From a virus, in the IMG/VR virus record IMGVR_UViG_3300031787_000724, positions 1 through 26,310 of that record: DNA of 26,310 nucleotides. The stretch is one strand, 5' to 3'. Positions 5,738 through 26,310 of this stretch are shown piece after piece. Position 1 is the stretch's first letter; each line of letters begins with the position of its first letter. Made by a program: the position numbers and the translations under genes. The notes under the pieces were generated by a model that saw only the letters and a program-made list of their open reading frames with translations, was not told the origin of the DNA and made no database searches.

Positions 5738-5759
5738 CGTGCAGTCCTTTGGTGCGGGG

Positions 5760-11916: not shown

Positions 11917-12782
11917 GCCGCCACCTCCTGAGACTCGAGCGCGACGCGGCGAGCGATCTCCTGCGCCGTCGTGAGCCCTCTCTTTTTGGCGGCAGACCAC
12001 AACCCCTCGCGGCCCATCCCGAGCCGGTTGCACCAGTACGTGAGGGGCTCGCTCACCCCGTCCACCGTGATCTTCGCGGCGGGCCGCCCGCGCTTCGCAG
12101 CAGCGTCGCTGCGCTGCCCGGCTCTGCACTTCTCGATCAGGCGCGCGATGCCGTCCGCCCCGTGATTCCACTGGTCGACAGTCGCGACCGACACCCCGAG
12201 CGCGAGCGCGAGCGCGGTGCGCGACAGCATCACGCCATCGAGCAAGAACCTCGGGCCGTGCGAGTACGACCCGCGCTGAATGCGTCGACGGCTCGGGTGC
12301 TCCGTGAGCTCTTGGATGACGTCGTGGAACGTCACGCCCTGACGCAACGCGCGGCGGTAGATCGCGCCCTTCGACTTGCCCACCGAGCGCGCGAGCTGCT
12401 TCACCGTCGGGCCAGCGCGGCGACGCGGGGCCTTGCGTGCGGCCTTCGCTCGCTTCACTCGACGCTCGCGCACCCCGCGCTCGTGCTCGGTGATCACGCG
12501 AGCAATCGCCTCGCGCGGCGCGAACTGCGCGTCGACGCCAGCGCGCGCACACAGCCGCTTGGCGTAGCACCCCACGTACCCGGTGAGCTTCGCGATCTCG
12601 TAGAGGCTGCGCCCGTTCGCGTCCGCGCTCCTGCGGAGTAGGTCCTCGCCGCGCAGCCCCTTGCGGATGCGCTTGTACAGCGTGTCCACAGTGACCCCCG
12701 CCATGCGCGCAGCCTCATCAACGCGCCGCGCGCCCACGCTCGCGAGAGCCTCCACCGTGCTCGCGTTCGTTCGAAATCTCAT
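11913..12782 (-). CDS. Protein with about five helix-turn-helix units
   Basis: 289 residues from ATG 12782 (TGATG with the DnaB stop). Five helix-turn-helix-like segments can be read: residues 22-46 (DEAARMAGVTVDTLYKRIRK), 59-85 (LYEIAKLTGYVGCYAKRLCA), 126-152 (VKQLARSVGKSKGAIYRRAL), 186-206 (LSRTALALALGVSVATVDQW) and 245-272 (LTYWCNRLGMGREGLWSAAK). A basic linker (about 106-123) separates the second and third. Such an array could track a long DNA site or repeated sites such as the candidate iterons, or act as a regulator. No enzymatic domain is seen. The position between DnaB and RusA ties it to replication or its control, by inference. Confidence 0.7.
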   Translation of the reverse strand: MRFRTNASTVEALASVGARRVDEAARMAGVTVDTLYKRIRKGLRGEDLLRRSADANGRSLYEIAKLTGYVGCYAKRLCARAGVDAQFAPREAIARVITEHERGVRERRVKRAKAARKAPRRRAGPTVKQLARSVGKSKGAIYRRALRQGVTFHDVIQELTEHPSRRRIQRGSYSHGPRFLLDGVMLSRTALALALGVSVATVDQWNHGADGIARLIEKCRAGQRSDAAAKRGRPAAKITVDGVSEPLTYWCNRLGMGREGLWSAAKKRGLTTAQEIARRVALESQEVAA

Positions 12783-14173: not shown

Positions 14174-15164
14174 TGGCCGCCTCCCGCGTCGCCGCTGCCT
14201 CTTCCGCGGCCCGCATCGCAGCGCGTTCGCGCCGCGCCAGCTCGATGAGTTCCTGTGCGCGCTCGGGGGTGATGAGGTCCTGCGGCGCGGGCTTCGAGGG
14301 CACTACGCGCAGCGGTGAGGGCTTCGAGGGCAACCGCTGCGAGGTCTCTTCGAGGCAGCGAATCAGCCCGTCCGCCGTGCGCCTGCCGGTCTCGTCAGGG
14401 CGTCCGAGCAGCGCGCCGATCGTGAGCGCGCCCTGCCACCACGACGCCTCCCCGCGGCCCACGAGGGTCGCCCAATGGTCGAGTTCGTCCGCGAGCCGCG
14501 GGCGCTGCGCTGCGATCGTCGCCAGCGTGCGGGACAGTTCGCGCTCGTGGCCATTCAGGGTCAGCGAGAGTTTGCCCTGCGACCGGTCGCGCAGTCGGTT
14601 CACCACCGCCCACGGGTCGAGCCACCACGCCGCGCTCGCCGGCTGCCCCTCGCGCGTACGTGCGCCCTCGTGCGTGGGCGTGGGCGCGCTCTCCTCTTTC
14701 TTATCTCTTCTTTCTGAGAGGGGGTCCGGGGGAGACTGAGTGGTGCTTGAATGGTTACGCGTGGTTGCGTTGGTTTTCGTGTTCGGTTCGTGTTCGGTTC
14801 GCGTAGCGTTCGTGTTCGGTTCGTGCGCAGTTCGTGTTCGGTTCGCGTCCGTCTCGCGCTCGGTTCGCGTCGCCTCGGGGCGCTCGTCGCACGCCACTAG
14901 CAGCCACCGCTCTCCGCGCCGCGCGAGGTACCCCGCACGCTCGAGCGAGCCGAGTTCGTCCGCGAGCCACCGGCGATCCCCTGCGGTCGCCCCGAGGCGA
15001 CGCGCGATCTCGCGCGTCAGCCCGTTGAGGTCGTGCGCGCAGGCGTCCAGCATGCCGTCTCGCTGGCGCTTCCAGAGCAGCTCATGCAGCCCGCGCGCGC
15101 GCAGCGAGAGGGCCGCAAACGGGGCCGCCTCCTCTGCCGGGCTCTTGACCCACGCGCCGCTCAC
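14166..15164 (-). CDS. Replication initiator-like protein (winged helix, linker, C-terminal domain)
   Basis: 332 residues from GTG 15164 (GTGA). N-terminal 90 residues look like a winged helix: LSLRARGLHELLWKRQRDGM, LTREIARRLGATAGDRRWLA, SLERAGYLARRGERWLLVAC. Residues 96-165 are a low-complexity linker rich in N, T, R, E, H and P. The C-terminal part (SAAWWLDPWAVVNRLRDRS onward) is helical and may contact DnaB. The gene directly precedes dnaB. This three-part plan and position match lambda O-type or DnaD-like phage initiators. The linker-coding DNA holds out-of-frame 22-base repeats (14776-14874) and a pyrimidine tract (14690-14717), a candidate origin inside the gene. Confidence 0.75.
   Translation of the reverse strand: MSGAWVKSPAEEAAPFAALSLRARGLHELLWKRQRDGMLDACAHDLNGLTREIARRLGATAGDRRWLADELGSLERAGYLARRGERWLLVACDERPEATRTERETDANRTRTAHEPNTNATRTEHEPNTKTNATTRNHSSTTQSPPDPLSERRDKKEESAPTPTHEGARTREGQPASAAWWLDPWAVVNRLRDRSQGKLSLTLNGHERELSRTLATIAAQRPRLADELDHWATLVGRGEASWWQGALTIGALLGRPDETGRRTADGLIRCLEETSQRLPSKPSPLRVVPSKPAPQDLITPERAQELIELARRERAAMRAAEEAAATREAANG
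14690..14717. other. Pyrimidine-rich, lower-G+C tract beside the iterons
   Basis: On the plus strand almost every base from 14690 to 14715 is C or T, with the T-rich core TTTCTTATCTCTTCTTTCT. It is one of the few low-G+C patches of the replication block and lies about 60 bases from the repeats, within the linker codons of the initiator gene. In lambda the origin pairs iterons with a strand-asymmetric A+T-rich region that melts first; this tract could play that part. That role is inference. Confidence 0.5.
14776..14874. repeat. Candidate replication-origin iterons inside the initiator gene
   Basis: The 15-base core TTCGTGTTCGGTTCG occurs exactly at 14776-14790, 14787-14801, 14809-14823 and 14831-14845, and with three mismatches at 14853-14867. 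Spacings are 11, 22, 22 and 22 bases, i.e. multiples of 11, placing copies on nearly the same face of the helix. Because 22 is not a multiple of three, each copy is read in a different frame (RTEHE, EPNT, NRTR all appear in the protein), so the repetition is a property of the DNA, not of the protein. Phage initiators such as lambda O bind such iterons within their own gene. Confidence 0.7.
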
Positions 15165-15373
15165 TCGTCACCTCTGCGGATCCGCTTGGCCCGAGCGCGG
15201 TGGTTCGTCGCGCGATCATCGGCAGCCATGGCCGCCGCGCTGCCTTGTGCGTCTTCGACACCGCGGAGCGACGCGGCGTAGTGCTCCTCGGCCTGCGCGA
15301 GATCGTCCTGATAGCGAGCGCGCGCGGCGCGAAGCTCGGGTGATTGGATGGCGAGAGTCGGCGTGGAAAGCAC
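15161..15373 (-). CDS. Small helical hypothetical protein, 70 aa
   Basis: GTG start at 15373 with a strong GGAGG about eight bases upstream. The sequence (LAIQSPELRAARARYQDDLA, then QAEEHYAASLRG) is a likely single long helix or coiled coil with a basic end (RARAKRIRRGDE). Its stop overlaps the initiator GTG (GTGA), so it is coupled to the replication genes. Function unknown. A 72-base gap separates it from the next gene upstream. Confidence 0.6.
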   Translation of the reverse strand: MLSTPTLAIQSPELRAARARYQDDLAQAEEHYAASLRGVEDAQGSAAAMAADDRATNHRARAKRIRRGDE

Positions 15374-15445
15374 GGTGATCCTCCGGTGATTCGTTGGCCG
15401 CTGCGCAGGGATCCGAGCCCCGGCGTCGCGCGTTTGCGCAGCGGG

Positions 15446-15703
15446 TCAGGCGGGTTCGTTGTTGGCGTTGGCGGCGTCCGCCTGAGCGATCCCCTCGACA
15501 GCCCGAGCGCTCGCCGCGAGTCGCTCGATCACCCGCAGCGCGGTCGCGTGCTGGTCCTGTTCGAGCTCGATCCCGAGCGCGCGCCCTCGATCCCGCAGGA
15601 CGTCGACGCACGCGAGTGCGAGCGCTTCGAGGTAGGTGGTCGAGAGGATCGCGTGTGACTCGCGCAGGCACTCGCGCAGGGTCTTGGCAGGGCGGACCGT
15701 CAC
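15446..15703 (-). CDS. Small hypothetical protein, 85 aa
   Basis: GTG start at 15703 shares bases with the upstream stop (GTGA). The protein is mostly helical (LRECLRESHAILSTTYLEAL, then ATALRVIERLAASARAVEGI) and ends in an Ala/Asn tail. No known motif. Early leftward genes of this kind in temperate phages often alter host processes; nothing in the sequence shows which. Confidence 0.6.
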   Translation of the reverse strand: MTVRPAKTLRECLRESHAILSTTYLEALALACVDVLRDRGRALGIELEQDQHATALRVIERLAASARAVEGIAQADAANANNEPA

Positions 15704-16026
15704 GACAGCAGCCCCTTCGCGGTGGGAGCCGCGGGCCGCGCGCTCGCGCGATCACCCTGCGACTCGACGTGATCGAGGTCGATCGCGAGCCTCTGCGCGC
15801 GGTCCCACGCGAGCGCTTCGTCGACGAACGACTGGCCGGTGTGGACGACGCGCCCCTCGACGCAATCCCCCAGCCTCGCCGCGGTGCAGTGCCCTCTCAC
15901 GAGCCAGCCCTGCGCGTTGCCGCCGAGGCGGTAGACGCTGACGACGACGAGGCCGTTGTCGCTCTCGACGGACCCGACGAGCTCGAGGATGAGTCTGTGC
16001 CCCTCGGTGAACCGGTGGGTTCTCAC
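15700..16026 (-). CDS. Small hypothetical protein, 108 aa
   Basis: The true start is the GTG at 16026, overlapping the upstream stop; an apparently longer frame to 16173 reads through the 33-base repeats of the upstream gene in the wrong frame and is rejected. The protein (RTHRFTEGHRLILELVGSVE, GLVVVSVYRLGGNAQGWLVR) looks beta-rich and compact with a Pro/Ala-rich tail. No family is recognised. Confidence 0.6.
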   Translation of the reverse strand: MRTHRFTEGHRLILELVGSVESDNGLVVVSVYRLGGNAQGWLVRGHCTAARLGDCVEGRVVHTGQSFVDEALAWDRAQRLAIDLDHVESQGDRASARPAAPTAKGLLS

Positions 16027-16436
16027 GACGCACCTCCAAGCATCGCGACGACGGCAGCGCGTACCCGCGCCTCGGCTGCGTCCAACGCCAAGCGCAGCCG
16101 CTTGCACTCCGCGTCCAACGCCAAGCGCAGCCGCTTGCACTCCGCGTCCAACGCCAAGCGCAGCCGCTTGCACTCCGAGTCTGCGGAGATCGCAGCGCGG
16201 GCCAGCGCATCTACGCTCGTGGCGTTATAGCGCCACATCTGGCTCGACAGCACGGCGTTGACCTTGGAAACGACTGTGCTTCCGGGGCGATACGTCCCGT
16301 CGACCGTGTGGGCGAGCGACGAGTACGAGACCCCCGCCGCCTTGGCCAAGGCTCTCCCTTTACGCTCGGAGAACACCGCACGCAGGCGGGAGGTGAACTC
16401 TGCAACCTCCGCGTCCGACAGGTGCTTCCCGCTCAC
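16023..16436 (-). CDS. HTH protein with a three-copy hendecad coiled coil
   Basis: 137 residues from GTG 16436 (GTGA). Residues 26-65 (KGRALAKAAGVSYSSLAHTV, then YRPGSTVVSKVNAVLSS) resemble a helix-turn-helix DNA-binding domain. Residues 88-120 are three copies of ECKRLRLALDA in tandem, followed by AEARVRAAVVAML. Eleven-residue periodicity with Leu, Leu and Ala on one face suggests a right-handed or straight coiled coil for oligomerisation, and a Cys in each copy. Located two genes from the Cro-like regulator, it is probably an early DNA-binding regulator. The exact family is not recognised. Confidence 0.65.
   Translation of the reverse strand: MSGKHLSDAEVAEFTSRLRAVFSERKGRALAKAAGVSYSSLAHTVDGTYRPGSTVVSKVNAVLSSQMWRYNATSVDALARAAISADSECKRLRLALDAECKRLRLALDAECKRLRLALDAAEARVRAAVVAMLGGAS
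16081..16179. repeat. Three 33-base tandem repeats within a coding region
   Basis: Copies at 16081-16113, 16114-16146 and 16147-16179. The first two are identical and the third differs at one base near its end (GCG to GAG). They encode the 11-residue unit ECKRLRLALDA on the minus strand. Near-perfect identity at silent positions means the copies arose recently, probably by slippage or unequal exchange, so the number of copies may vary between relatives. Spacers are absent, so this is not a CRISPR array. Confidence 0.95.
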
Positions 16437-16705
16437 GACGCACCGCCGATCACGGTCGCGATCCGACCGAGCGCCCACAGGACACCGACGACGACCGCGG
16501 CGAACCCAATCCCGACGAGCCCACCCATCACGTTGTCAGCCCACGTCGCGTCCGACTCGATGTTGCGCAGGCGCAGCTCGTGGCGCAGCCGGTCCGCCTC
16601 CGCGCGCAACGCCTGAGTCTCCTTCACGCGCTCGATGCAGCGCAGGCACACGCGCTGTGCACACGCCGCACAGCGCTGGCCGCTCTGGTCTGCGGGGGCG
16701 CTCAC
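16433..16705 (-). CDS. Small single-span membrane protein with N-terminal CxxC motifs
   Basis: 90 residues from GTG 16705 (GTGA). The N-terminus has CAACAQRVCLRC, i.e. two CxxC pairs five residues apart, possibly a small zinc site. Residues 25-50 are a charged helix (VKETQALRAEADRLRHELR) and residues 58-82 a hydrophobic segment (GGLVGIGFAAVVVGVLWALG) long enough to cross the membrane once. With no signal peptide the N-terminus is probably cytoplasmic. As the second gene of the early leftward operon it could be a superinfection-exclusion or host-interaction protein; that is a guess from context. Confidence 0.65.
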   Translation of the reverse strand: MSAPADQSGQRCAACAQRVCLRCIERVKETQALRAEADRLRHELRLRNIESDATWADNVMGGLVGIGFAAVVVGVLWALGRIATVIGGAS

Positions 16706-16965
16706 GCTGCCACCCGCGATGCCTTCGATCCCCTCGTCGCCCGCGCCCGCTTCCCCTTCGCGGGCCACAGGTCGCCGATCTCGCACCCGAAGATCGCCGC
16801 GATTCTTTGTGCGAGCAGAACGTCCGGCGTCGCCTTGGCGTTCTCGATGGTCGAATACCGGCCTTGGCTGATATCCAGTTTCGCCGCCATATCTTGCTGG
16901 CGCAGACCAGCGGCGAAACGCCTCTTGGCCAATTCACTTGGCCGTCTCCCGTGCGATGCCCTCAT
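16702..16965 (-). CDS. XRE-family regulator, Cro-like, first gene of the leftward operon
   Basis: 87 residues from ATG 16965. An XRE helix-turn-helix spans residues 18-68: RQQDMAAKLDISQGRYSTIE, then DVLLAQRIAAIFGCEIGDLW. The C-terminus is short and basic, with no peptidase or dimerisation domain, like Cro proteins. It is divergent from the repressor at 17048 across an 82-base operator region. The predicted -10 box of its promoter ends about nine bases before the ATG, so its mRNA may start almost at the start codon. It probably opposes the repressor and allows lytic growth, by analogy with lambda. Confidence 0.8.
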   Translation of the reverse strand: MRASHGRRPSELAKRRFAAGLRQQDMAAKLDISQGRYSTIENAKATPDVLLAQRIAAIFGCEIGDLWPAKGKRARATRGSKASRVAA

Positions 16966-16973
16966 GGTGGTCG

Positions 16974-17002
16974 AGAGTAGATAATCTAGATATCTACGTC
17001 AA
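16974..17002 (-). promoter_or_regulatory. Leftward early promoter with operator in the spacer
   Basis: On the minus strand: -35 TTGACG (17002-16997), 17-base spacer (16996-16980), -10 TACTCT (16979-16974). The spacer contains the perfect palindrome TAGATATCTA (16987-16996) and an overlapping near-palindrome TAGATAATCTA (16978-16988). The ten-base string ATCTAGATAT within it (16984-16993) recurs in the spacer of the rightward promoter. A repressor bound here would block RNA polymerase. Confidence 0.7.
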
Positions 17003-17011
17003 GGACCAGCG

Positions 17012-17040
17012 TTGCAATATTCTCAATCGCGATGGACTAT
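17012..17040 (+). promoter_or_regulatory. Probable repressor promoter (leaderless type)
   Basis: TTGCAA at 17012-17017, a 17-base spacer, and GACTAT at 17035-17040, which is a weak -10 box. The expected transcript start, about seven bases later, falls on or next to the ATG at 17048, and no ribosome site precedes that ATG. A weak promoter next to operators and a leaderless repressor mRNA match lambda P_RM and cI. The -10 match is poor, so this is tentative. Confidence 0.5.
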
Positions 17041-17047
17041 CCGCGGC

Positions 17048-17473
17048 ATGAGGTTGCGCGACGCGCGGAAAAAGGCAGGGCTTACGCAGGAAGAGCTGGC
17101 AGAGCGCGCGGGGCTCGCGCAGTCGGTGGTGTCGCGCGCCGAGAAGGGGCTCAGCGTCGCGAGCGACAGCCTCGCGAGACTCGCCGAAGCCGTGGGCCTC
17201 GCGGTTGCTGACCTGGAGTCAGACCCCGAGGCGGTCCCCGCTCGCACCGCGGCTCACGCGCACGAGTCATCCGTTATCCCTGTGTTGCGGAACCGCCCCG
17301 GCGCAGAAGAGGCCCTCGCGCGGGCGAAGGCGGACGACCCGTCTATCGATGACGAAACGTGGGACGTGCTGCTCCGCGCGCCGGGGTTGTTCGCGTTCGA
17401 CGTGCCGTTGACGCCCGCCCTGTTGATCGACCTCGCCAAAGTCGTGCGCCGCCATCGACCGCCGAAAAGGTGA
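17048..17473 (+). CDS. Lysogeny repressor-like XRE protein (CI/ImmR type)
   Basis: 141 residues from ATG 17048; an alternative TTG start at 17012 would add 12 residues but would overlap the predicted promoter. An XRE helix-turn-helix covers residues 4-60: LRDARKKAGLTQEELAERAG, LAQSVVSRAEKGLSVASDSL, LARLAEAVGLAVADLE. The C-terminal 80 residues lack the Ser/Lys peptidase motif of LexA/CI, so self-cleavage is not expected. It is followed 31 bases later by an ImmA-like metalloprotease, the ImmR-ImmA pairing known from ICEBs1 and phi105-type elements, in which the protease cuts the repressor to induce. It likely binds the AGATAT/ATCTA sites on both sides. Confidence 0.8.
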   Translation: MRLRDARKKAGLTQEELAERAGLAQSVVSRAEKGLSVASDSLARLAEAVGLAVADLESDPEAVPARTAAHAHESSVIPVLRNRPGAEEALARAKADDPSIDDETWDVLLRAPGLFAFDVPLTPALLIDLAKVVRRHRPPKR

Positions 17474-17504
17474 CGCGGGTCCGGGGCGGCGGGATCGTGA
17501 GGAG

Positions 17505-17960
17505 GTGGACGGGTTGCTCGCTCTAACAGTGGCGGACGAGGTGAGGGCGGGGCTGGCCCTGCTGTCAGACGAGGAGCTCGAGGCCGAGGCCGCGGGGCTG
17601 TGGAGCCAAGTCTCGGACGTGGGTGACGCGGAGGATCTCGCGCGCGTGGCGGACACCCGCGTGGAGTACGACCGCGGGCTCCCCGCCGGCGTCGACGGGA
17701 TCGCCCTGCCCCACGTCCTCGTCGTGCGTCCGAGCCGCCAGCGGGCCCTCGTGGTCCTGCGGATCCTTCACGAACTCTCGCACTACCTGCTCGGCGTCGA
17801 CAGGATGCATACCCACGCGGACGTCTGGAGGTTGACGCTCGCGCTCGCGTGGCCTGTCCCGCGGATACGCCGGGGCCGTCCACCGCTCGAAGTCCCAGCT
17901 TGGGCGGTGGAGTTGCGCGCGCTTATCGTCGCTGAATCTCGCATGATCTCCGCGGCTTAG
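17505..17960 (+). CDS. ImmA/IrrE-like zinc metallopeptidase
   Basis: 151 residues from GTG 17505; a TTG at 17514 has AGGAGG at ideal distance and may be the real start (three residues shorter). HELSH at residues 89-93 is the HExxH zinc-binding and catalytic motif, preceded by ALVVLRIL in the usual hydrophobic helix. D106 in THADVWRLTLALAWP may be the third ligand, and the -ALAWP ending resembles the A-x-x-L-L-M-P end of this family. In ICEBs1 ImmA cleaves the repressor ImmR; the gene order repressor-protease is the same here. It probably relieves repression on a host signal. Confidence 0.75.
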   Translation: MDGLLALTVADEVRAGLALLSDEELEAEAAGLWSQVSDVGDAEDLARVADTRVEYDRGLPAGVDGIALPHVLVVRPSRQRALVVLRILHELSHYLLGVDRMHTHADVWRLTLALAWPVPRIRRGRPPLEVPAWAVELRALIVAESRMISAA

Positions 17961-17970
17961 AAGAAAAGAA

Positions 17971-18025
17971 AGATATTGCGTCGACAGATATTGCAATCCA
18001 TCTAGATATGCCGTATCTCTTATCT
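17971..18025 (+). promoter_or_regulatory. Rightward promoter and operator array
   Basis: -35 TTGCAA (17991-17996), 17-base spacer, -10 TATCTC (18014-18019). ATCTAGATAT (18000-18009), identical to the element at 16984-16993, lies in the spacer. Half-sites AGATAT occur at 17971, 17986 and 18005, and inverted TATCT at 18014 and 18021; AGATATTGC is repeated directly at 17971-17979 and 17986-17994. The region is strikingly A+T-rich against its surroundings. It precedes the rightward operon, whose first ATG is at 18062. Confidence 0.7.
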
Positions 18026-18061
18026 CGCCCCCAGGGACACGGGGCAGACGGAGAGACGGCG

Positions 18062-18304
18062 ATGAGACAGACGACGCAGGGACAGGGATACCGCGGGCTG
18101 GAGATCGAGGCTGGTCACTCGCTGGTGAGCGTGTGGCGCACCGTGAGCGCGGCAGGGCTCGGTACCCGCTGGATTGCAGACGTGACCGACCTGCGCACGG
18201 GTCACACCGTGGGCGCGTACTCGCACCACGCGACCCGCGAGCGCGCCATCCGCGCGGCCAACCGGATGGCATCGACGGCCCGTCGCGTGGCAGGTGCGCT
18301 GTGA
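18062..18304 (+). CDS. First gene of the rightward operon, hypothetical, 80 aa
   Basis: ATG 18062 with GGAGAG about seven bases upstream; the frame is open to 18008 but that codon lies inside the predicted promoter. The protein (LEIEAGHSLVSVWRTVSAAG, then RWIADVTDLRTGHTVGAYSH) appears as a small beta sheet followed by a helix (RERAIRAANRMASTARR). No family is recognised. Genes at this position in temperate phages are often early regulators or host-takeover factors. Confidence 0.6.
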   Translation: MRQTTQGQGYRGLEIEAGHSLVSVWRTVSAAGLGTRWIADVTDLRTGHTVGAYSHHATRERAIRAANRMASTARRVAGAL

Positions 18305-18585
18305 GCGCGCGGACGTACAGCATCGAGATCAGCGGGATCACCTACTCGGTCGTGGCCGAGGTCGAGAGCGCAGACCGGTCGACGGGGACGCCGGAGCAAG
18401 CCGCAATCTCGTCGGTCAAGTGCCACGGCTACGAGATCGGTAGCGACGAGTTCGAAGCGATCGTCAACTACCTCGAGTCCGACGTGATCGGGCAGTACCG
18501 CGAGCGCCGTGCGGCAGAGCGCGAGGCGGTGCGCGCCGCGGAGTACGCCGACTCCGTTTACCTGCTGGCGTGCGAGGGCTGGTGA
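18301..18585 (+). CDS. Hypothetical protein, 94 aa
   Basis: GTG 18301 overlaps the upstream stop (GTGA). The N-terminal half looks beta-rich (RTYSIEISGITYSVVAEVES), the second half helical and acidic (DEFEAIVNYLESDVIGQYRE). No motif is recognised. A 91-base structured gap follows. Confidence 0.6.
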   Translation: MSARTYSIEISGITYSVVAEVESADRSTGTPEQAAISSVKCHGYEIGSDEFEAIVNYLESDVIGQYRERRAAEREAVRAAEYADSVYLLACEGW

Positions 18586-18607
18586 GGCGCTGCGCCGCGG
18601 GGGCCTG

Positions 18608-18654
18608 AGACGCGCTCACGAGCGTTGTCCGGGCCTCCACGGGGCCGCGCGTCT
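18608..18654. other. Inverted repeat in the 91-base gap of the rightward operon
   Basis: AGACGCGC at 18608-18615 is exactly complementary, inverted, to GCGCGTCT at 18647-18654, enclosing 31 bases that hold a further short GGCC...GGCC pairing. No T-run follows. A strong ribosome site (GGAGGAGAG) comes 12 bases later. The structure could be an RNA processing site, attenuator or protein binding site; a standard terminator is unlikely. Confidence 0.4.
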
Positions 18655-18676
18655 GCGGACCCACGGAGGAGAGACC

Positions 18677-19123
18677 GTGCTGACCACGATGAGACTCGAT
18701 GACAACTACACGCTGGAGATTCGCGCGTACCGCGGCACCCCGCCGCAGGGCGTGACCCCGGTCCGCGAGGGTGTCGACGTGATCGACGCCACGGGCGAGA
18801 GCGTGGACAACGGCGAGCTTTTCGCCCTCGCTCACGACCTGTGCGACTACGATGGCGAGTGCGTCGAGGGCGCTCTGGACGCGCTCCTCGGGTACGCTGA
18901 CGAGCTCGCCGAAGCGGAGCGCCACGTTGCCGCGGCTGACGCCGCGGACGCTGGCGTCGAGTTGTGGGAGACCGCGTTCGCTGCGGATCCCGAGGCTCCC
19001 GACGCGGGACAGTTGAGCGAGTACGACGTCGACGCGTTCGCGCGCAGTGAGGCCGTGCGCCTCTCGACGCTGACGGGCCAACTGCTCGTGACTCTGGACT
19101 TTGCCGCAGGTGGCTCGCGATGA
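18677..19123 (+). CDS. Acidic hypothetical protein, 148 aa
   Basis: GTG 18677 is chosen because GGAGGAGAG lies about eight bases upstream; ATG 18689 is the alternative. The protein starts with a beta-rich part (LDDNYTLEIRAYRGTPPQGV), then is strongly acidic and helical, with LFALAHDLCDYDGECVEGAL and LLGYADELAEAERHVAAADA. The high Asp/Glu content would suit a DNA-mimic or a binding partner of a basic protein, but no family is recognised. Confidence 0.6.
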   Translation: MLTTMRLDDNYTLEIRAYRGTPPQGVTPVREGVDVIDATGESVDNGELFALAHDLCDYDGECVEGALDALLGYADELAEAERHVAAADAADAGVELWETAFAADPEAPDAGQLSEYDVDAFARSEAVRLSTLTGQLLVTLDFAAGGSR

Positions 19124-19395
19124 CCGCCGTGATCGTCGCCTCGCGCGTCCGAGTCTCGGGCTCGGCTCCGATCACTGGCGAGTGGCCCGTCTATCACGCG
19201 CGCCGCGCTGACCCGCTGACGGCGTGGGCGCGCGACGTGTCCCGCCTGACCGAGTGGGACGCCGAGCGCGTCCGACCGAGCGAACACGGCTACGTCTACG
19301 CGCTGCGCTCGCGACGCGGCAAGCGGTCGATTCGGTTTCACGTTGCGGTCGAGACCACGCTGATCGGGATCGTCTCGGCTCGGGTGTCGCTGTGA
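19120..19395 (+). CDS. Hypothetical protein, 91 aa
   Basis: ATG 19120 overlaps the upstream stop (ATGA). Basic, with beta-like stretches (AVIVASRVRVSGSAPITGEW, HGYVYALRSRRGKRSIRFHV) and a C-terminal hydrophobic strand. No motif is recognised. Coupling to the gene upstream secures the frame. Confidence 0.55.
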   Translation: MTAVIVASRVRVSGSAPITGEWPVYHARRADPLTAWARDVSRLTEWDAERVRPSEHGYVYALRSRRGKRSIRFHVAVETTLIGIVSARVSL

Positions 19396-19469
19396 GTGCG
19401 CTCGGTACGGCCAGTGATGACGCGCTGAGAAGACCCGTCCCGCCCGAGAGGGTGACGAGAAGACGGTAG
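19392..19469 (+). CDS. Possible 25-codon leader-type ORF
   Basis: GTG 19392 overlaps the preceding stop (GTGA) and the frame ends with TAG at 19467-19469. It would encode VSALGTASDDALRRPVPPER plus five residues. Its stop coincides with the base of an 11-base-pair hairpin, as in leader peptides that control a following structure. Composition alone gives no proof that it is translated. Confidence 0.3.
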   Translation: MSALGTASDDALRRPVPPERVTRRR

Positions 19470-19538
19470 GCAGCGGGCGATGAAGTGCTCGGCAGGCCCG
19501 CTGCCTCGATTGGGACCACACGCGGGGAGTGGTCGCAA
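19468..19538. other. Two consecutive RNA hairpins in a 186-base operon gap
   Basis: AGGCAGCGGGC (19468-19478) pairs perfectly with GCCCGCTGCCT (19496-19506) around a 17-base loop. Directly after it GACCAC (19514-19519) pairs with GTGGTC (19529-19534), and the flanking TTG/CAA can extend this stem past one mismatch. Neither is followed by a T-run. The next gene starts at 19582 behind a good ribosome site. The pair may attenuate or protect the transcript between the first and second halves of the rightward operon. Confidence 0.5.
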
Positions 19539-19581
19539 CCGACGCAGGGAGTCGAACGGGAACCCAACGGAGGAGTGAACG

Positions 19582-20040
19582 GTGAAGGTCGTAATCAACA
19601 ACCGCTACGGCGGATTCGGGCTGAGCGAGGAGGCGCTCGCGTGGCTGCGCGAGCACGAGTGGAAGCACTGCGCGCGCCCGGAAGACGCGCCCCGGCACGA
19701 CCCGCTATTGGTCAAGTGCGTCGAGGCACTTGGCGAGAAGGCCAGCGATCGATACGCGAGCCTCTCCATCGTGGACGCGGGCTGCGCGTACAGGATCAGC
19801 GAGTACGACGGCCTCGAGCGCATCGAGCACGTCAGCGGGGACGCGATCACGATCACCGATGCGGAGGTGACGCAGGCCGTCGCCGACGTCGTTGCAGCCG
19901 AGCGTGCGGTGTGCCTCGAGATCGTGGGGAAGCTCGCGCGGCACGCGTACATCAACAGCTACACGCGCGGTCGCTCGGATGCCGCAGCGGAGATCGCGCA
20001 GGCCATTGCCTCGCGTTCGAAGGGCGAGGTCTCACGATGA
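19582..20040 (+). CDS. Conserved-type phage protein beginning MKVVINNRYGGFGLS
   Basis: 152 residues from GTG 19582 with GGAGGAG about nine bases upstream. The N-terminus MKVVINNRYGGFGLSEEALA is a pattern I recall from many phage and prophage proteins of unknown function (MKVVIN.CYGGFSLS). The central part (KASDRYASLSIVDAGCAYRI, EYDGLERI) is a mixed alpha/beta fold; the C-terminal 40 residues after TQAVADVVAAE are helical. Function is unknown. It is coupled to the ASCH-like gene downstream. Confidence 0.7.
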   Translation: MKVVINNRYGGFGLSEEALAWLREHEWKHCARPEDAPRHDPLLVKCVEALGEKASDRYASLSIVDAGCAYRISEYDGLERIEHVSGDAITITDAEVTQAVADVVAAERAVCLEIVGKLARHAYINSYTRGRSDAAAEIAQAIASRSKGEVSR

Positions 20041-20318
20041 CTACCCACGAGCTGAAGACCCACCCCGCGCACTTCGCCGCCGTTCAGAGCGGTGCGAAGC
20101 GAGCGGAGATTCGCAGGGACGACCGCGGGTTCGCAGTCGGCGACGTGCTGGTGTTGCGCGAGTACGACCCGACCACGAACGAGCACACGGGGCGCTTCGT
20201 CGAGGTGCGCGTGACGCATGTCCTCAAGGGTTTCGAGGGTCTCGCGGAGGGTTGGGTCTCGCTGAGCGTGGAGCCGCTGCAGCCGTCGTTGTTCAACGGG
20301 ATTGCGGGGATGTTCTGA
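20037..20318 (+). CDS. ASCH/PUA-like protein (DUF3850 type)
   Basis: 93 residues from ATG 20037 (ATGA). It reads HELKTHPAHFAAVQSGAKRA, EIRRDDRGFAVGDVLVLREY and VRVTHVLKGFEGLAEGWVSL, which is the DUF3850 pattern (HxLK, F.AV..G.K..EIR.NDR.F.VGD.L.L.EY, VT..L.GF.GL..G...L). ASCH/PUA folds bind RNA or modified nucleic acid. In phages these small proteins are common, with unknown targets. Next to several DNA-modification genes it might recognise modified bases, but that is inference. Confidence 0.85.
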   Translation: MTTHELKTHPAHFAAVQSGAKRAEIRRDDRGFAVGDVLVLREYDPTTNEHTGRFVEVRVTHVLKGFEGLAEGWVSLSVEPLQPSLFNGIAGMF

Positions 20319-20644
20319 TGAGTCGCGACAGGATCAGATTCAGGGTGCGGGCCACGGACGGGCGCTATGAGTGCGAGGCGCGCGCGGAGTGGGTCTCGAC
20401 CGAGAGCGGAGCGGAGGTGCTGGTCGCTGGGCTCCGCCGTCACGACGGGTACGAGGTCTCGGACGCGGAGGCAGCGCAGGCGCTCGCGCTGACGGTGAGC
20501 GAGCTTCGGGTGCAGCTCCGGGCGTGCGCGATCGAGGCGCAGGGAGCGCGGGAGAGGGAGCCGGGGGTTTGTCCGCTGGTGTGGTTGACGCCTGGCCGCA
20601 CGCGGTCTGCGCTGCCTGTGCTCGAGGGGAGGCTGGCCTCGTGA
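20318..20644 (+). CDS. Hypothetical protein, 108 aa
   Basis: ATG 20318 shares one base with the upstream stop (TGATG), and the stop overlaps the next GTG (GTGA). The first half is beta-rich (RIRFRVRATDGRYECEARAE), the middle helical (VSDAEAAQALALTVSELRVQ). No motif is recognised. A longer frame starting at 19892 is shadow sequence upstream of this ATG. Confidence 0.55.
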   Translation: MSRDRIRFRVRATDGRYECEARAEWVSTESGAEVLVAGLRRHDGYEVSDAEAAQALALTVSELRVQLRACAIEAQGAREREPGVCPLVWLTPGRTRSALPVLEGRLAS

Positions 20645-21597
20645 TCGCCCTCCCGAAGCACCACGAAAGCGATCTGGTGATCGCGTCTATCAGCGGCGGC
20701 AAGGACTCGGCAGCACTCGCGATCGCTCTGCAGGAGGCCGGTATCCCGTTCGTCGCCGTGTTCGCTGACACGGGCTGGGAAGCGCCAGAGACCTACGCTC
20801 ACCTTGGCACGATTGAGCGCGTGCTCGGGATCGCGATTCACCGCGTCGGATTCCCTGGAGGGATGCGGGCGAAGGTCATGGGGCGCTCAGGGTTCCCATC
20901 TCGGATGGCGCGATGGTGCACGGCAGAGTTGAAGGTCAAGCCGCTTGACGCGTTCGCTCACGAGATGGGCGAGCGCGAAGGACGCGCAGTGCTGCAAGCC
21001 GTTGGCATCCGCGCGGACGAGAGCGAGTCGCGCTCGGCGATGACAGAGGTGGAGCACGACGACTCGCGCGATCTGACCGTGTGGCGTCCGTTGCTGCGAT
21101 GGACCGTCGAGGATGTGATCGGGGCGCACCATCGCGCCGGGTTGCCGATGCACCCTCACTACCTGCGCGGGCACTCGCGCGTCGGGTGTTGGCCCTGCAT
21201 CTACTCCAGCAAGTCAGAAATCGCGCTGTGGGCTGAGCACGACCCCGAAGGCGTGAAGGCGCTCGCGGAGTTGGAGCTCGAAGCAGAGCGCGAGCGCGCT
21301 CGCCGAAACGCCGAGACGCCGGGGCGCTACTCGCACGAAACCGCCTCGTTCTTTCAGGCCCGCGAGGTGACGAAGCTGCCCGACGGAAAACGCGTCTACC
21401 TGCCGGTCCACGTTGAGCAGGTCGTCGAGTGGGCGCGCACAGACCGAGGCGGGAAGCAGATGCCACTGATCCGAGAGCAGCCCGCGGGTGGGTGCTTCCG
21501 CTGGGGGATGTGCGAGCCGCCTGCGGCCGACAAGCCTGCGGATGAAGAGCCCGCGGCAGCCAACGACAACGCCGACAGCACCGAGGTGGCCTCGTGA
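20641..21597 (+). CDS. PAPS reductase-family (adenine nucleotide alpha-hydrolase) protein
   Basis: 318 residues from GTG 20641 (GTGA). The PP-loop SGGKDS is at residues 18-23, followed by VAVFADTGWEAPETYAHL. Further family marks are MARWCTAELKVKPLD (C93), VGIRADES (121-128), WRPLLRWTVEDVI and the Cys pair GCWPC (C183, C186), with later C285 and C291. The family activates a substrate with ATP and includes PAPS reductases, DndC of DNA phosphorothioation and tRNA thiolases. The C183/C186/C285/C291 set could hold an iron-sulfur cluster or zinc. No other Dnd genes are visible. It precedes a cytosine methyltransferase and overlaps it, so a role in DNA or nucleotide modification is possible. Confidence 0.85.
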   Translation: MIALPKHHESDLVIASISGGKDSAALAIALQEAGIPFVAVFADTGWEAPETYAHLGTIERVLGIAIHRVGFPGGMRAKVMGRSGFPSRMARWCTAELKVKPLDAFAHEMGEREGRAVLQAVGIRADESESRSAMTEVEHDDSRDLTVWRPLLRWTVEDVIGAHHRAGLPMHPHYLRGHSRVGCWPCIYSSKSEIALWAEHDPEGVKALAELELEAERERARRNAETPGRYSHETASFFQAREVTKLPDGKRVYLPVHVEQVVEWARTDRGGKQMPLIREQPAGGCFRWGMCEPPAADKPADEEPAAANDNADSTEVAS

Positions 21598-22514
21598 TTC
21601 GCGCGGTCGACCTCTTCGCGGGCGCTGGTGGCTGGTCGTGCGGTGCAGAGCGCGCGGGCGTGCGCGTTGTTGCTGGTGCGAACCACTGGCCGCGCGCGGT
21701 CGAGACGTTCCGCGCGGCGCACCCGCAGGCCGTCGCCCGCTGCCAAGACGTGACGATCATGGACCCGCGCGACCTGCCTTCGTTCGACCTGTTGCTCGCC
21801 TCGCCCGCGTGTCAGGGGCACAGCCGAGCGCGCGGGACAGACCAGCCTCACCACGATGTGCAGCGCGCGACAGCGTGGGCTGTGGTGCAGGTGGCCGAGG
21901 TCTGCCGGCCGCGATGGCTCGCGGTCGAGAACGTCCCTGAGTTCGCGCGCTGGCCGCTGTATCGGCACTGGCGCGCGGCGCTCTCGACGCTGGGCTACCG
22001 ACTCACCGAGCGCGTGCTCGATGCCGCAGAGCACGGCGTCCCGCAGGAGCGTCGCAGGCTGTTCGTTGTCGGGTCGCTCGATGGGCTCCCGTCCCTGTCG
22101 AGCGCGGGTCTCGAGCCCGTGCCCGCGAGTTCGTTCGTGCGGTTCGATGGTGGCTCGTGGTCCCCGGTTCGCCGTGAGGGTCGAGCGCCGAGGACGCTCA
22201 CGCGCATCGAGGCTGCGCAGCGCGAGCATGGCGAGCGGGTGCTCGTGCCCTACTACGGCAGCGCTCGCGGCGGACGTCCGCTATCTCGCCCTGTCGGGAC
22301 GATCACGACGCACGATCGGTACGCGGTGGTCGACGGCGACCGCATGCGAATGTTGAGCGTCGAGGAGCTGCGCGCGGCGATGGGATTCCCTGCGTCGTAC
22401 CCACTGACAGGCACGCGAGCGGAGCAAGTCCACCAACTTGGAAACGCCTGCGTCCCAGCGGTGGCCGCACACGTCGTGCAGCAGTTGATCGCGACGAGGC
22501 GAGGCGCAGCATGA
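21594..22514 (+). CDS. DNA cytosine-5 methyltransferase
   Basis: 306 residues from GTG 21594 (GTGA). Conserved motifs are present in order: I DLFAGAGGWSCG (6-17), IV SPACQGHS with catalytic C73 (the usual PPCQ is PACQ), VI VENVPEF (111-117), VIII VPQERRRLFVVG (149-160), and X HQLGNACVP near the C-terminus. The target-recognition part lies between VIII and IX. At 306 residues it is near minimal length. It would transfer a methyl group to C5 of cytosine in a short DNA site, protecting the phage from host restriction; no matching nuclease is visible nearby. It is expressed together with the PAPS-reductase-like gene. Confidence 0.9.
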   Translation: MIRAVDLFAGAGGWSCGAERAGVRVVAGANHWPRAVETFRAAHPQAVARCQDVTIMDPRDLPSFDLLLASPACQGHSRARGTDQPHHDVQRATAWAVVQVAEVCRPRWLAVENVPEFARWPLYRHWRAALSTLGYRLTERVLDAAEHGVPQERRRLFVVGSLDGLPSLSSAGLEPVPASSFVRFDGGSWSPVRREGRAPRTLTRIEAAQREHGERVLVPYYGSARGGRPLSRPVGTITTHDRYAVVDGDRMRMLSVEELRAAMGFPASYPLTGTRAEQVHQLGNACVPAVAAHVVQQLIATRRGAA

Positions 22515-23098
22515 GCGCCCTCTATCTCGAGCCCCAATCCCTCGTCGTCGTCTGCCCCGACTGCGGCCAGCGATACGACCCAGCCAAGGCCGCGAGGGTC
22601 GCTCGCGTTCGCACCCGCGACGGTCGCACCATCAAGCCTGGTCGCGTCGAAGCGCAGGACGTTCGAGAGCCTGGGCACCGCAACGGGCGGCATCACTTCG
22701 CACACGCAATGGTCACCGCGCAGGCGCTCGACGGTTGGTCTCTGCTGACGGATGCGCTAGCGGTCGGAGCGCGTCAGTTCGGCGTCGAGGTGGAGTGGAC
22801 ACGGATCGACGCGCCTACGTCGCTCCGGTTCATTCGGACGTGGGATCTCGACTGCCTCATCGCTGAGATGGACGAGTGCGCAAAGCGCGAAACAGCGCGT
22901 CGAATCTGGCGCGCTTCGATGGCGGTTCGTGTTGATCACCCGTGGTGGCGTGCCTATCTGCACGAGGTGGGAGCGAGCGCAGAGGAGATCGCGCGAGGGC
23001 TCACGGTTGGCGCGAACAACCGCGCCGACGTGTTGTTTCGGCAGCGAGTGCAGACGGTGACGACACCCGCAGAGGCGTCGTTGCCGGGGCTGACGTGA
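22511..23098 (+). CDS. Hypothetical protein with CxxC, 195 aa
   Basis: ATG 22511 overlaps the methyltransferase stop (ATGA). The N-terminus has VVVCPDCGQRYDPAKAARVA, one zinc-ribbon-like CxxC, then a His-rich patch (NGRHHFAHAMVT) and a helical region with RTWDLDCLIAEMDECAKRET. The tail resembles a DNA-binding helical region (GASAEEIARGLTVGANN). The single CxxC with histidines could bind zinc. No family is recognised. Confidence 0.6.
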   Translation: MSALYLEPQSLVVVCPDCGQRYDPAKAARVARVRTRDGRTIKPGRVEAQDVREPGHRNGRHHFAHAMVTAQALDGWSLLTDALAVGARQFGVEVEWTRIDAPTSLRFIRTWDLDCLIAEMDECAKRETARRIWRASMAVRVDHPWWRAYLHEVGASAEEIARGLTVGANNRADVLFRQRVQTVTTPAEASLPGLT

Positions 23099-23199
23099 CC
23101 ACAAGCGGCACGGCCCGCTGCCTCGACTGCGGTCGCGCGTGCGCGGTCGATCTCGCGGCAGGCGAGCACAGGTATTCAACGAGAGGACACGGACGATGA
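23095..23199 (+). CDS. Very small CxxC protein, 34 aa
   Basis: GTG 23095 overlaps the upstream stop and the TGA at 23197-23199 overlaps the next ATG (ATGA); being locked at both ends supports a real gene. It encodes VTTSGTARCLDCGRACAVDL and 14 more residues, with Cys at 9, 12 and 16. A tiny zinc-binding peptide is possible. No function is proposed. Confidence 0.5.
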   Translation: MTTSGTARCLDCGRACAVDLAAGEHRYSTRGHGR

Positions 23200-23834
23200 A
23201 TGACATTGAGGTAGAAGACGATCGCCGACACGACCGAGATCACGAGATCCCAGGCGACCACGACGACCGGAACGTGCACGGCGACTACGACGCGTATGCG
23301 CGGGACCTCGAAGAGCAAGATGACCGGCGACTTGAGATCGAGGCTGCAGTCGACAAGGCGGTCGCCGCCGAGCGCGAGCGTGCGGCTGCCGAGCTCGCGG
23401 TGCTCACGGAGCGCATGGAGGCTGCGATTGCCGAGGCGTGCGCAGCGGTGCGGGTGCGGACGATCGAGGAGTGCCTCGCGGTTGCGGGTGCGGAGGTCGG
23501 CGCTCACGAGTCGAAGCTCTGCCTCTACTCCGAGGAGGACTCCCGCTGGGTCGACTGCAACGGGCGCGCGAACGAGGCGGTCGAGATCTACAACGCAATC
23601 CGCGCCCTCGCTGCGCCCACGCCCACCACCGCTCGCGAGGAGCACTACACGTGCCCTCGGTGCGGCGTGTGCGTCGAGTTGATTTGCCACTGCGGCGACG
23701 GGCCGAACGACGCGAGCCACACGGCGAGCGGGTACACGCACGAATTCACGCCGTACAACCCGTGCGCGTGCGCCGCGCCCTCGCCCACCACCGAGCCCGC
23801 CCCTGTCGACCCTGCCGCGGGGGCGCGGCGATGA
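23196..23834 (+). CDS. Acidic coiled-coil protein with C-terminal cysteine cluster, 212 aa
   Basis: ATG 23196 (ATGA). Three regions: an Asp/His/Arg-rich N-terminal 45 residues (DDRRHDRDHEIPGDHDDRNV), a long Ala/Glu coiled coil (about 48-95: AVDKAVAAERERAAAELAVL, TERMEAAIAEACAAVRVR), and a C-terminal cysteine/His cluster (YTCPRCGVCVELICHCGDG) that may bind zinc, followed by a Pro/Thr/Ala tail. A metal-binding scaffold is a guess. No family is recognised. Confidence 0.6.
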   Translation: MNDIEVEDDRRHDRDHEIPGDHDDRNVHGDYDAYARDLEEQDDRRLEIEAAVDKAVAAERERAAAELAVLTERMEAAIAEACAAVRVRTIEECLAVAGAEVGAHESKLCLYSEEDSRWVDCNGRANEAVEIYNAIRALAAPTPTTAREEHYTCPRCGVCVELICHCGDGPNDASHTASGYTHEFTPYNPCACAAPSPTTEPAPVDPAAGARR

Positions 23835-24040
23835 GCAACGAGGAGCGGCTTCTCGGCGAGCGCATCCGAATCGCGCACGCGCTCGACCGTCTCAGCGGCG
23901 CACTCAGCGCGGCGAGGATTGCCCTTCGCAGCGGAGACCCGTTCGCCGAAACGGGCGACGCGCTGGTGTCGATCGCGGTCGAACTGGCGAAACACATGGC
24001 CGTGAGCGACGCGCTGGACCACGACAGGAGGAAGCGATGA
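23831..24040 (+). CDS. Small helical hypothetical protein, 69 aa
   Basis: ATG 23831 overlaps the upstream stop (ATGA) and its stop overlaps the next ATG. It is predicted to be nearly all helical (LGERIRIAHALDRLSGALSA, ALVSIAVELAKHMAVSDALD) with a basic end. No motif is recognised. Confidence 0.6.
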   Translation: MSNEERLLGERIRIAHALDRLSGALSAARIALRSGDPFAETGDALVSIAVELAKHMAVSDALDHDRRKR

Positions 24041-24441
24041 CCGCCCGACGCTGCACACGATGCGGGGCGCACAACGTCGCGACGAGCGGCACGCTATGCT
24101 CGCTGTGCGAGTGGTCGCATCTCACGCCCCAGGCTCGCGCAGCCCGCGCACACGCCGACGCCCTCGCCGCCCTCGATGCGCTCGGCGTGGCGGTCGCGAC
24201 CGTCGCGCGAGCCACGCTCATCGCGCGCGTTGCGATCGGTCGCACGATCACCGTCCGCACCGAGGTTGATGGCGTCGAGCGCGGGCTCGAGCTGTGGCAG
24301 CGCGGCTCGTCGCTGTGCCTGTCGGAGTACGCGCACAACCGCGCGCCGCGTCGACTGTGGCAGATCGAGGGCCAGCCGGAGGACAACGCGGCAGAGGCGG
24401 TCGCGCGGTTGATCGAGTTGGTGGAGGAGCGGACGCGATGA
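24037..24441 (+). CDS. Zinc-ribbon protein, 134 aa
   Basis: ATG 24037 (ATGA). The N-terminus has CTRCGAHNVATSGTLCSLC, two CxxC pairs 12 residues apart, a good zinc ribbon. The rest is Ala-rich helical followed by a beta-like part (IGRTITVRTEVDGVERGLEL). It is translationally coupled to the permuted methyltransferase gene, so it may be a partner or specificity helper for it; this is inference. No family is recognised. Confidence 0.65.
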   Translation: MTARRCTRCGAHNVATSGTLCSLCEWSHLTPQARAARAHADALAALDALGVAVATVARATLIARVAIGRTITVRTEVDGVERGLELWQRGSSLCLSEYAHNRAPRRLWQIEGQPEDNAAEAVARLIELVEERTR

Positions 24442-25799
24442 TCGACGAGATTCTCGACGGGGCCGCGGACGTCGTGCTGGCGAATCCTCCGTACATCGTC
24501 GACCCGGACCCTGCGCGACGCGAGGCGGTTCGAGCCCGATACGAGAGTGCGGTTGCTCGCTACGGTCTCGGCGTGCCGTTTACCGAGCGGCTGTTTCAGC
24601 TCGCCCGAGAGGGCGGTTGGATCGCGCAGATCACGAGCAACGCGTTCATGAAGCGCGAGCACGGCAAGGCGCTCGTCGAGACGGTGCTCCCGCGCTGGGA
24701 CATGACGCACGTCATCGACGCCGCGGGCGCGTTCATCCCCGGACACGGGACGCCGACGGTGATCCTCGCGGCGCGCGCTCGCGCTCCGCAGTCGCGCCAC
24801 GTGCTCACGGTCATGGGCAAGTGCGGCGAGAAGACCACGCCCGCTCCGGGCGAGCCAGGGCAGGCGTGGCGCTCGATTTTGCGCGCGCTCGACGTACCGC
24901 AGGCCAACGACCCGCCGCGGGCGTACGGCATCGAGGGGGCGCGCGTGCTCGCAGACGTGCTGCGGCAGAGCAGACCGTCGAAGCTCGAGCGCAGGCTCGG
25001 CCCTCGTCTCGGCCCTGCGCTGCTCGGCGCTGCGCTCGTGCTCGCGTTCTCATCGCGTCAGTGGATTCGCGGTCTCGCGATCGGCGACGGGCTCAACGAG
25101 ATCGAGGACGCGACGGGCATCGACCCGCTCGTGCGCGTCGAACTCACGGAGTCCGAGAGCGCCGAGGTGTTCGCGTTCGTCCGCAGCGTCACGCCGCCTC
25201 GCGGTCTCGCATCAACGGCGACGGCGATCGACGCCGGGCGCGCGGGCTGGGCGACGCGCGATACTGATTGGATCGGCGATCTGTACCAGGCCACGCACGA
25301 GGGCACCGTGAAGCGCGACGCATTGTGCCAAACGCCGTGGTTCGTCCGTGACCTCCTGATCCAACTCGCGCTCGATCCTGCGATCAATGAGCAGGGGCTC
25401 GACGTGCGCGTACTTGATCCGGCCTGCGGCACGGGGCACTTGCTCTGCGGCGCGTTCTGGCGGCTGTTCGATGCGCGAATGGAGTCGGGCGAACACACCG
25501 TCTACGGCGCGGCAGACGCGGCCCTCCGCTCCGTCGAGGGCATCGAACTCACACCGGAGACAGCAGCGCTCGCGCGTCTGCGCCTCGTGCTCGCGTGGGC
25601 TGACGCGACGGGGCACGGGCTCGCGCGCCTCGGACCGCGCGACGTGGCCGGCGACCGGCACACGCTGCACAACGCAGCCGAGCGCGTGCGCGTTGCGGTC
25701 GGCAACTCGCTGCTGAGCGGGTGCGCTGGTCGTCGGTTCCCAGCACCCGCGCTCGTGCCCGCGGAGCCGTTCCGTTTGACGATGGCGAGGGCGTCATGA
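24438..25799 (+). CDS. PglX-like N6-adenine DNA methyltransferase with circularly permuted motif order
   Basis: 453 residues from ATG 24438 (ATGA). Motif IV NPPY (residues 16-19) comes first, followed by MKREHGK (71-77) and IPGHGTPTVIL (100-110), all in the order and with the wording seen in the second half of PglX-type (BREX) methyltransferases. Only later come DLYQ (281-284), QTPWFVRDLL (298-307), motif I DPACGTGHLL (327-336), GIEL (368-371) and VGNSLLSG (421-428), which in normal PglX lie before NPPY. The natural joint GNSLL...NPPY is thus the present C- and N-terminus. It is far shorter than the roughly 1200-residue BREX PglX. All catalytic motifs are intact, so it may be active and could mimic a BREX-type protective mark; that function is inference. 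Confidence 0.8.
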   Translation: MIDEILDGAADVVLANPPYIVDPDPARREAVRARYESAVARYGLGVPFTERLFQLAREGGWIAQITSNAFMKREHGKALVETVLPRWDMTHVIDAAGAFIPGHGTPTVILAARARAPQSRHVLTVMGKCGEKTTPAPGEPGQAWRSILRALDVPQANDPPRAYGIEGARVLADVLRQSRPSKLERRLGPRLGPALLGAALVLAFSSRQWIRGLAIGDGLNEIEDATGIDPLVRVELTESESAEVFAFVRSVTPPRGLASTATAIDAGRAGWATRDTDWIGDLYQATHEGTVKRDALCQTPWFVRDLLIQLALDPAINEQGLDVRVLDPACGTGHLLCGAFWRLFDARMESGEHTVYGAADAALRSVEGIELTPETAALARLRLVLAWADATGHGLARLGPRDVAGDRHTLHNAAERVRVAVGNSLLSGCAGRRFPAPALVPAEPFRLTMARAS

Positions 25800-26176
25800 C
25801 CGCCGCGCGCGTGGTGGCGCTCCCGTCGCTGCTGAGTCCGCGGGACATCGAGGCACGCCTCGGGTGTTCGCGCAGCACGGCGTACGCTCACGCAGAGGCG
25901 TGCGCCGTGCTGCACCACGGGCGCCCTCGAGGGTGCGGCGGGCTGTTGCGGGTTACGCGCGAGGCGTGGGACAGGTACGAGCGAGAGGTGATCCTGTGCG
26001 GCTGTGGCGACGCGACGATTCCGGGTACTGGTACGCGTCGATCCGCGACGCGAGCGGGCGCAGGGTCAAGCGCTCGACGGGCTACACCGATCGCAAGGCC
26101 GCAGAGGCAATCGCCCGCGAGTGGGAGCGCGAACTCGCCGATCCCGACGCCGCGGCGCTACGGGCCGAGACCGTAG
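25796..26176 (+). CDS. Excisionase-like HTH protein overlapping the integrase gene
   Basis: ATG 25796 (ATGA). The first 70 residues fit a small HTH/excisionase protein: LLSPRDIEARLGCSRSTAYA, then LRVTREAWDRYEREVI. The frame has no stop until 26174-26176, so it overlaps the integrase by 181 bases; the part after about residue 70 has the Arg/Ser/Pro-rich look of out-of-frame sequence. In lambda xis and int also overlap, though by only about 20 codons. The functional domain is probably the first 70 residues; whether the long tail is made is unknown. Confidence 0.65.
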   Translation: MTAARVVALPSLLSPRDIEARLGCSRSTAYAHAEACAVLHHGRPRGCGGLLRVTREAWDRYEREVILCGCGDATIPGTGTRRSATRAGAGSSARRATPIARPQRQSPASGSANSPIPTPRRYGPRP

Positions 26177-26310
26177 CGACGTGCCTCGAACGGTTCGTAC
26201 TCGCGACCCGCAACGAGCGCACGAGGTCGTTCTACGCGCAGAAGAGCGGGCATCTCGTCGCGATCCTCGGCGCGGACACGCGGCTCTCTGACCTGCGCCC
26301 CGCGCACCTC
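25996..26310 (+). CDS. int: Tyrosine integrase, N-terminal part (runs off right edge)
   Basis: 105 codons visible from GTG 25996, which has GAGAGGTGA about five bases upstream. The sequence VRLWRRDDSGYWYASIRDAS, then KRSTGYTDRKAAEAIAREW, matches the N-terminal arm-binding domain (beta sheet then helix) of phage tyrosine recombinases, and FVLATRNERTRSFYAQKSGH, LVAILGADTRLSDLRPAHL the start of the core-binding (SAM-like) domain. The catalytic R-H-R-Y part is beyond the window. It should integrate the phage at an attachment site that would lie near here; none is visible in the available sequence. Confidence 0.85.
   Translation, partial: MRLWRRDDSGYWYASIRDASGRRVKRSTGYTDRKAAEAIAREWERELADPDAAALRAETVATCLERFVLATRNERTRSFYAQKSGHLVAILGADTRLSDLRPAHL

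Follow-up and report, generated by a model that had tools for sequence, protein, structure and literature searches.

A candidate natural circular permutation of the BREX-2 PglX-type methyltransferase core in a temperate phage

Beta and gamma methyltransferases are thought to be linked by circular permutation, and the events themselves are usually too old to be seen. The two classes differ at motif IV, which reads DPPY or SPPY in the beta class, whereas NPPY is the gamma signature. Beta-class enzymes are arranged as motifs IV-VIII, a target-recognition domain (TRD) and motifs X-I-III (PMC2890505). Natural circular permutation has been described in C5-methyltransferases of the M.BssHII and M.Alw26I type, and duplication with truncation has been proposed as the route to permuted methyltransferases such as M.BssHII (PMC5944983). 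BREX-2 PglX is a protein of about 1200 aa in which the SAM-binding half precedes the catalytic half, and the catalytic domain is followed by a TRD and a C-terminal domain. Full-length E. coli BrxX is inactive alone and requires BrxB, BrxC and BrxZ, and the authors of that work speculate that the NTD or the CTD restrains it (PMC11842806; architecture also in PMC12839542). Here we describe a phage protein of 453 aa in which the two halves of the PglX core stand in the swapped order. It is encoded in the window, by which we mean the whole stretch of 26,310 nucleotides analysed, IMG/VR record IMGVR_UViG_3300031787_000724.

Swapped motif order within the BREX-2 PglX family

The gene is a single open reading frame preceded by a Shine-Dalgarno-like GGAGGAG at 24423-24429, 8 nt 5' of its ATG. 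Its start overlaps the stop of the upstream gene and its stop overlaps the start of the downstream ORF, in both cases as ATGA. The parts of the gene are as follows.

24438..25799, + strand: putative permuted PglX-core N6-adenine methyltransferase, 453 aa, one ORF
24438..24902, + strand: new N-terminal half, residues 1-155, with motif IV (NPPY) and the catalytic motifs that follow it; corresponds to PglX profile positions 353-512
24903..25262, + strand: spacer, approximately residues 156-275, largely helical in the structure model
25263..25727, + strand: new C-terminal half, residues about 276-430; corresponds to PglX profile positions 176-318

In the translation, NPPY (residues 16-19), FMKREHGK (70-77) and GHGTPTVIL (102-110) lie in the N-terminal half, and DLYQ (281-284), TPWFV (299-303), DPACGTGHLL (327-336) and GNSLL (422-426) in the C-terminal half, where TPWFV corresponds to motif X, DPACGTGH to motif I, GIEL to motif II and GNSLL to motif III. 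This is the order that a sequence-only reading had reported, with the NPPY set N-terminal and the DPACGTGHLL/GNSLL set C-terminal. Pfam placed Eco57I, the motif IV half, at residues 8-94 and N6_Mtase, the motif I half, at residues 298-386. The NCBIfam profile for BREX-2 PglX, NF033451, matched the whole protein in two stretches with 270.7 bits (E 2.4e-80), below its curated whole-protein cut-off of 400 bits. When each half was searched separately, as the sequence-only reading had proposed, residues 5-156 matched profile positions 353-512 (166.3 bits, E 7.6e-49) and the C-terminal half matched positions 176-318 (103 bits, E 1e-29), both far beyond chance, and the PADLOC PglX model PDLC02529 gave the same swapped order. 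Both halves match one profile, with the second half of the profile coming first, and therefore represent one family in swapped order; a fusion of two unrelated halves was ruled out because both match the same family.

The profile matches thus bear out the suggestion of a true circular permutation reduced to the catalytic domain: the halves come from one family, the other relatives with both halves are unpermuted and the ends lie at the joint between motifs III and IV. We regard a natural circular permutation of a BREX-2 PglX-type catalytic core as well supported. The sequence-only reading had further held that GNSLL runs directly into NPPY in PglX and that the present ends fall exactly there. 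The new termini do lie in the linker that joins motif III (GNSLL) to motif IV (NPPY), but the two motifs do not abut: in PglX, about 20-60 residues separate GDSLL from NPPY. Neither the TRD nor the C-terminal domain of PglX was recognised, with no match in the 453-aa protein past profile position about 513.

A cut at this joint would separate strands 3 and 4 of the Rossmann fold and place the catalytic half (motif IV onwards) ahead of the half that binds SAM (X, I, II, III), converting a gamma-type into a beta-type order. The resulting arrangement, IV-VIII, spacer and X-I-III, equals the beta-class order (PMC2890505) and is already known from other families. At residues 16-19, however, the protein carries NPPY rather than DPPY or SPPY, and by sequence it is a PglX; the beta-type order therefore appears to have been reached independently. 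The M.BssHII and M.Alw26I type differs in comprising C5-cytosine enzymes whose cut lies in the variable region that separates motifs VIII and IX, whereas the phage protein is of the N6-adenine type and is cut between III and IV.

An AlphaFold2 model, for which 55 unmodified half-fragments were supplied as unpaired rows, reached a pTM of 0.72 and a mean pLDDT of 71.9, with both halves mostly confident and residues 153-272 poorly predicted, and placed strands beta4-7 in the N-terminal half and beta1-3 in the C-terminal half. Foldseek searches with this model returned the gamma N6-adenine enzymes CamA, M.TaqI, M.BseCI, BrxX and PglX over about 110-150 columns each time, as expected of a sequential aligner facing a permutation; parts of CamA, M.TaqI, M.BseCI and BrxX resemble the model, whereas their halves stand in sequential order. 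The best match among viral models, A0A411BDK2, covered 503 columns but at an rmsd of 24 and 14% identity, and is not interpretable.

Relatives, origin and search for further permuted members

Identity to Myxococcota BREX-2 PglX reached about 53% in the N-terminal half and 45% in the C-terminal half, and neither half requires a different source. Trees placed the protein with Myxococcota BREX-2 PglX (SH-aLRT 98) on a long branch (1.1-1.4), and an AU test did not reject a grouping with short actinophage cores (p 0.54); given this branch and this test, a firm Myxococcota BREX-2 PglX origin was set aside. As to the host, an 872-aa protein of the phage had no match in 379 Myxococcota genomes or in known phages. 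The most likely route to the permutation would be a duplication with bidirectional truncation, in the course of which the PglX TRD and C-terminal domain were lost; neither leftover half-copies nor remnants of a duplicated copy were found near the gene.

IMG/VR was scanned with the whole protein, the N-terminal half, the C-terminal half and full rotated alignments, and these scans yielded 11 distinct phage contigs in which both halves occur, all in normal order. A genome scan returned at least 80 loci; among the matches listed, every ORF with two halves was normal (at least 86 including repeats of phage loci), and about 75 bacterial loci carried both halves in one ORF in that order. Matches occurred in 31 of the 379 Myxococcota genomes, and all 26 half-match pairs located on one contig were normal by coordinates. 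A DNA pattern of Shine-Dalgarno sequence, ATG and NPPY revealed no other NPPY-starting methyltransferase in IMG/VR, at an allowed spacing of 4-9 that misses the window's own gene (10, from GAGG to ATG), which makes this a weak negative. Across IMG/VR, GenBank phages, the 379 Myxococcota genomes and the genome-scan matches listed, no permuted member was found beyond a second copy of the same phage, and among the relatives sampled the gene is so far a singleton.

The reduction in size is shared more widely than the swapped order. Short PglX cores found in phages of actinobacteria and on Streptomyces plasmids (L005, L008, L015-L022) show the same reduction, to about 440-475 aa, and likewise reside on mobile elements, but their order is normal. 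A reduced PglX core that lacks the TRD already exists unpermuted, then, in several actinobacterial phages and plasmids. Several of the short actinophage cores end in a sliding-clamp-type QxxLF, whereas the permuted protein lacks it. The sliding-clamp motif has the consensus QL[S/D]LF or QxxLF (PMC12309361). A C-terminal QxxLF occurs in 12 of the 14 listed actinophage PglX-core methylases (shuffle rate 0.0005), eight of them with strict QLxLF; among 69 relatives longer than 1000 aa, the latter is absent. The carriers, not all phylogenetically independent, are six short cores (L015, L016, L017, L018, L019 and L022) and six half forms (L038, L039, L041, L046, L047 and L048). This tail suggests that the actinophage methylases may be tethered to the replication clamp; some of the short cores also lie near DnaB helicase genes.

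Half-methyltransferases (L038, L039, L041, L042, L046, L047 and L048) consist of the PglX N-terminal region with motifs X and I-III and end after GDSLL; no NPPY half for them was found in the ORF or anywhere in their 24-104 kb contigs. Separately, a BREX-2 PglX at L137:3900-8726 is interrupted by an in-frame stop (about 5697) that lies between the halves, at the same joint as the cut of the window protein, and that may be a sequencing error or mark a pseudogene.

Putative modification genes near the permuted gene

The phage is temperate, and the following genes surround the permuted one.

20371..21597, + strand: PAPS-reductase-like gene related to SspD/BrxP/DndC (phrog_424 E 3e-53, PF01507, PADLOC SspD 108 bits)
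21594..22514, + strand: C5-cytosine DNA methyltransferase (PF00145 E 4e-40, phrog_116)
24037..24441, + strand: upstream gene, 134 aa, possible zinc ribbon with N-terminal CxxC...CxxC, overlapping the methyltransferase start
25796..26176, + strand: downstream ORF, possible small DNA-binding protein (phrog_664 E 0.031 only)
25864..26310, + strand: start of a phage integrase ORF (phrog_1 integrase E 7e-39, PF00589)

The integrase ORF runs past the window end in the sister contig (L001:6427-7833). The sequence-only reading had suggested the 134-aa protein as a possible partner in specificity; its zinc-ribbon matches were weak and below the cut-off, and no relatives of it were found beside other PglX cores. 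The SspD-like and C5-methyltransferase genes lie 2-4 kb upstream of the permuted gene and overlap each other (20371-22514), forming a possible phage DNA-modification pair; by its matches, the product of the former is possibly involved in DNA sulfur modification. None of the BREX core genes pglW, pglZ and brxC was found beside the permuted gene among the ten proteins of the window and flank, the only related product being the BrxP/SspD-like sulfur protein. Rfam, tRNA and promoter scans returned nothing relevant. On the Streptomyces linear plasmids (L005:2345-5044 and L008:2264-4960), a short PglX core lies directly 3' of a PAPS-reductase-like gene (phrog_424, tested for L005); in the window phage, such a gene lies 3 kb upstream of the PglX core.

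Predicted function and alternative readings

Of the 60 near-invariant columns (conservation in at least 95% of relatives), 53 are retained (36/40 in the N-terminal half and 17/20 in the C-terminal half), and NPPY and DPACGTGH are intact. Two near-invariant acids are changed: D370E, a conservative replacement of the motif II acid, and D423N in motif III. Together with the long branch, D423N could mean a lowered activity. The sequence-only reading had also proposed that the phage may imitate the BREX methyl mark, which the data do not support. With the PglX TRD and C-terminal domain absent, BREX specificity cannot be carried in the known way, and full-length E. coli BrxX is itself inactive alone (PMC11842806). 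The permuted core could, however, be free of the restraint proposed for BrxX.

We favour the reading that the protein is probably a TRD-less N6-adenine methyltransferase that modifies phage DNA with low or borrowed specificity. Its two halves would come together in a single active site, bind SAM there and transfer the methyl group to adenine N6, and the stand-alone enzyme would most likely act on the phage's own DNA as part of a modification-gene cluster, lowering sensitivity to host restriction and so serving self-protection.

The spacer is where another reading of the specificity finds its footing. Residues about 156-275 are predicted to be mostly helical, with pLDDT mostly 30-50, and no relatives of residues 155-272 were found, leaving this segment without alignment depth. 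In context, the profile match continues on the N-terminal side of motif X as far as about residue 228; an equally high score was reached by 38 of 3000 shuffled spacers, and by 491 of 3000 when a Myxococcota-only profile was used. Residues about 228-275 may represent the PglX stretch that directly precedes motif X, and the case for homology between the spacer and the PglX N-terminal region is weak. Lying between motifs VIII and X, where beta-class enzymes carry their TRD (PMC2890505), and being unrelated to anything found, the 120 residues could be a small TRD of their own, which would make the protein an active, site-specific methyltransferase. We consider this unlikely, as the segment is predicted to be all-helical at low confidence, matches no TRD family and may in part, at residues 228-275, belong to PglX itself.

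The changed motif III residue is open to yet another interpretation, in which the permuted protein folds but is inactive and acts as a PglX-derived decoy, binding SAM or host BREX partners and poisoning the BREX complex. Besides D423N, this would fit the missing TRD and the dependence of BrxX on partners for activity (PMC11842806), the nearest identities to Myxococcota BREX-2 PglX and the occurrence in actinophages of PglX pieces without the NPPY half. A pure decoy, however, would have no need of NPPY, DPACGTGH and 53 of 60 near-invariant positions, and no counterpart of the helical N-terminal domain, for which contacts with BREX partners have been suggested (PMC12839542), can be recognised here, which makes this role quite improbable.

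A second contig, IMGVR_UViG_3300031951_000250, represents the same phage and carries an identical methyltransferase gene, far from the contig ends. It overlaps the window at both ends (window positions 10050-26310 and 1-5778), which implies that the genome map is circular, at about 54 kb, with the two contigs starting at different points; the two differ by two adjacent SNPs across 16.3 kb. A third record, IMGVR_UViG_3300032050_008276, holds another portion of this phage. Since the gene is identical in the second contig, lies far from its ends and the SNPs fall elsewhere, mis-assembly is an unlikely source of the swapped order. Although only a single permuted sequence is known, and GC-rich frames stay open by chance, with many shadow ORFs in the window, the idea of mis-joined halves or of a decaying relic ORF is already largely refuted, and very improbable, given this different start point, the Shine-Dalgarno sequence and gene overlap at the new start, the conserved residues in both halves and the absence of half-copies nearby.

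Returning to the TRD-less modifying enzyme, a broader version of this reading would hold that permutation, along with removal of the TRD and C-terminal domain, freed the PglX core from BREX and produced a stand-alone adenine methyltransferase of broad action, shielding the phage against BREX as well as other m6A-sensitive restriction; we regard this version as rather unlikely. On that version, the gene would represent a young natural conversion from gamma to beta order caught inside an otherwise unpermuted family. With one permuted, intact-looking member and the other sampled members normal, such a conversion becomes testable on close relatives. Because BrxX shows no activity by itself (PMC11842806), a minimal mobile core with possible activity outside the complex would also be directly informative about how PglX is kept inactive.
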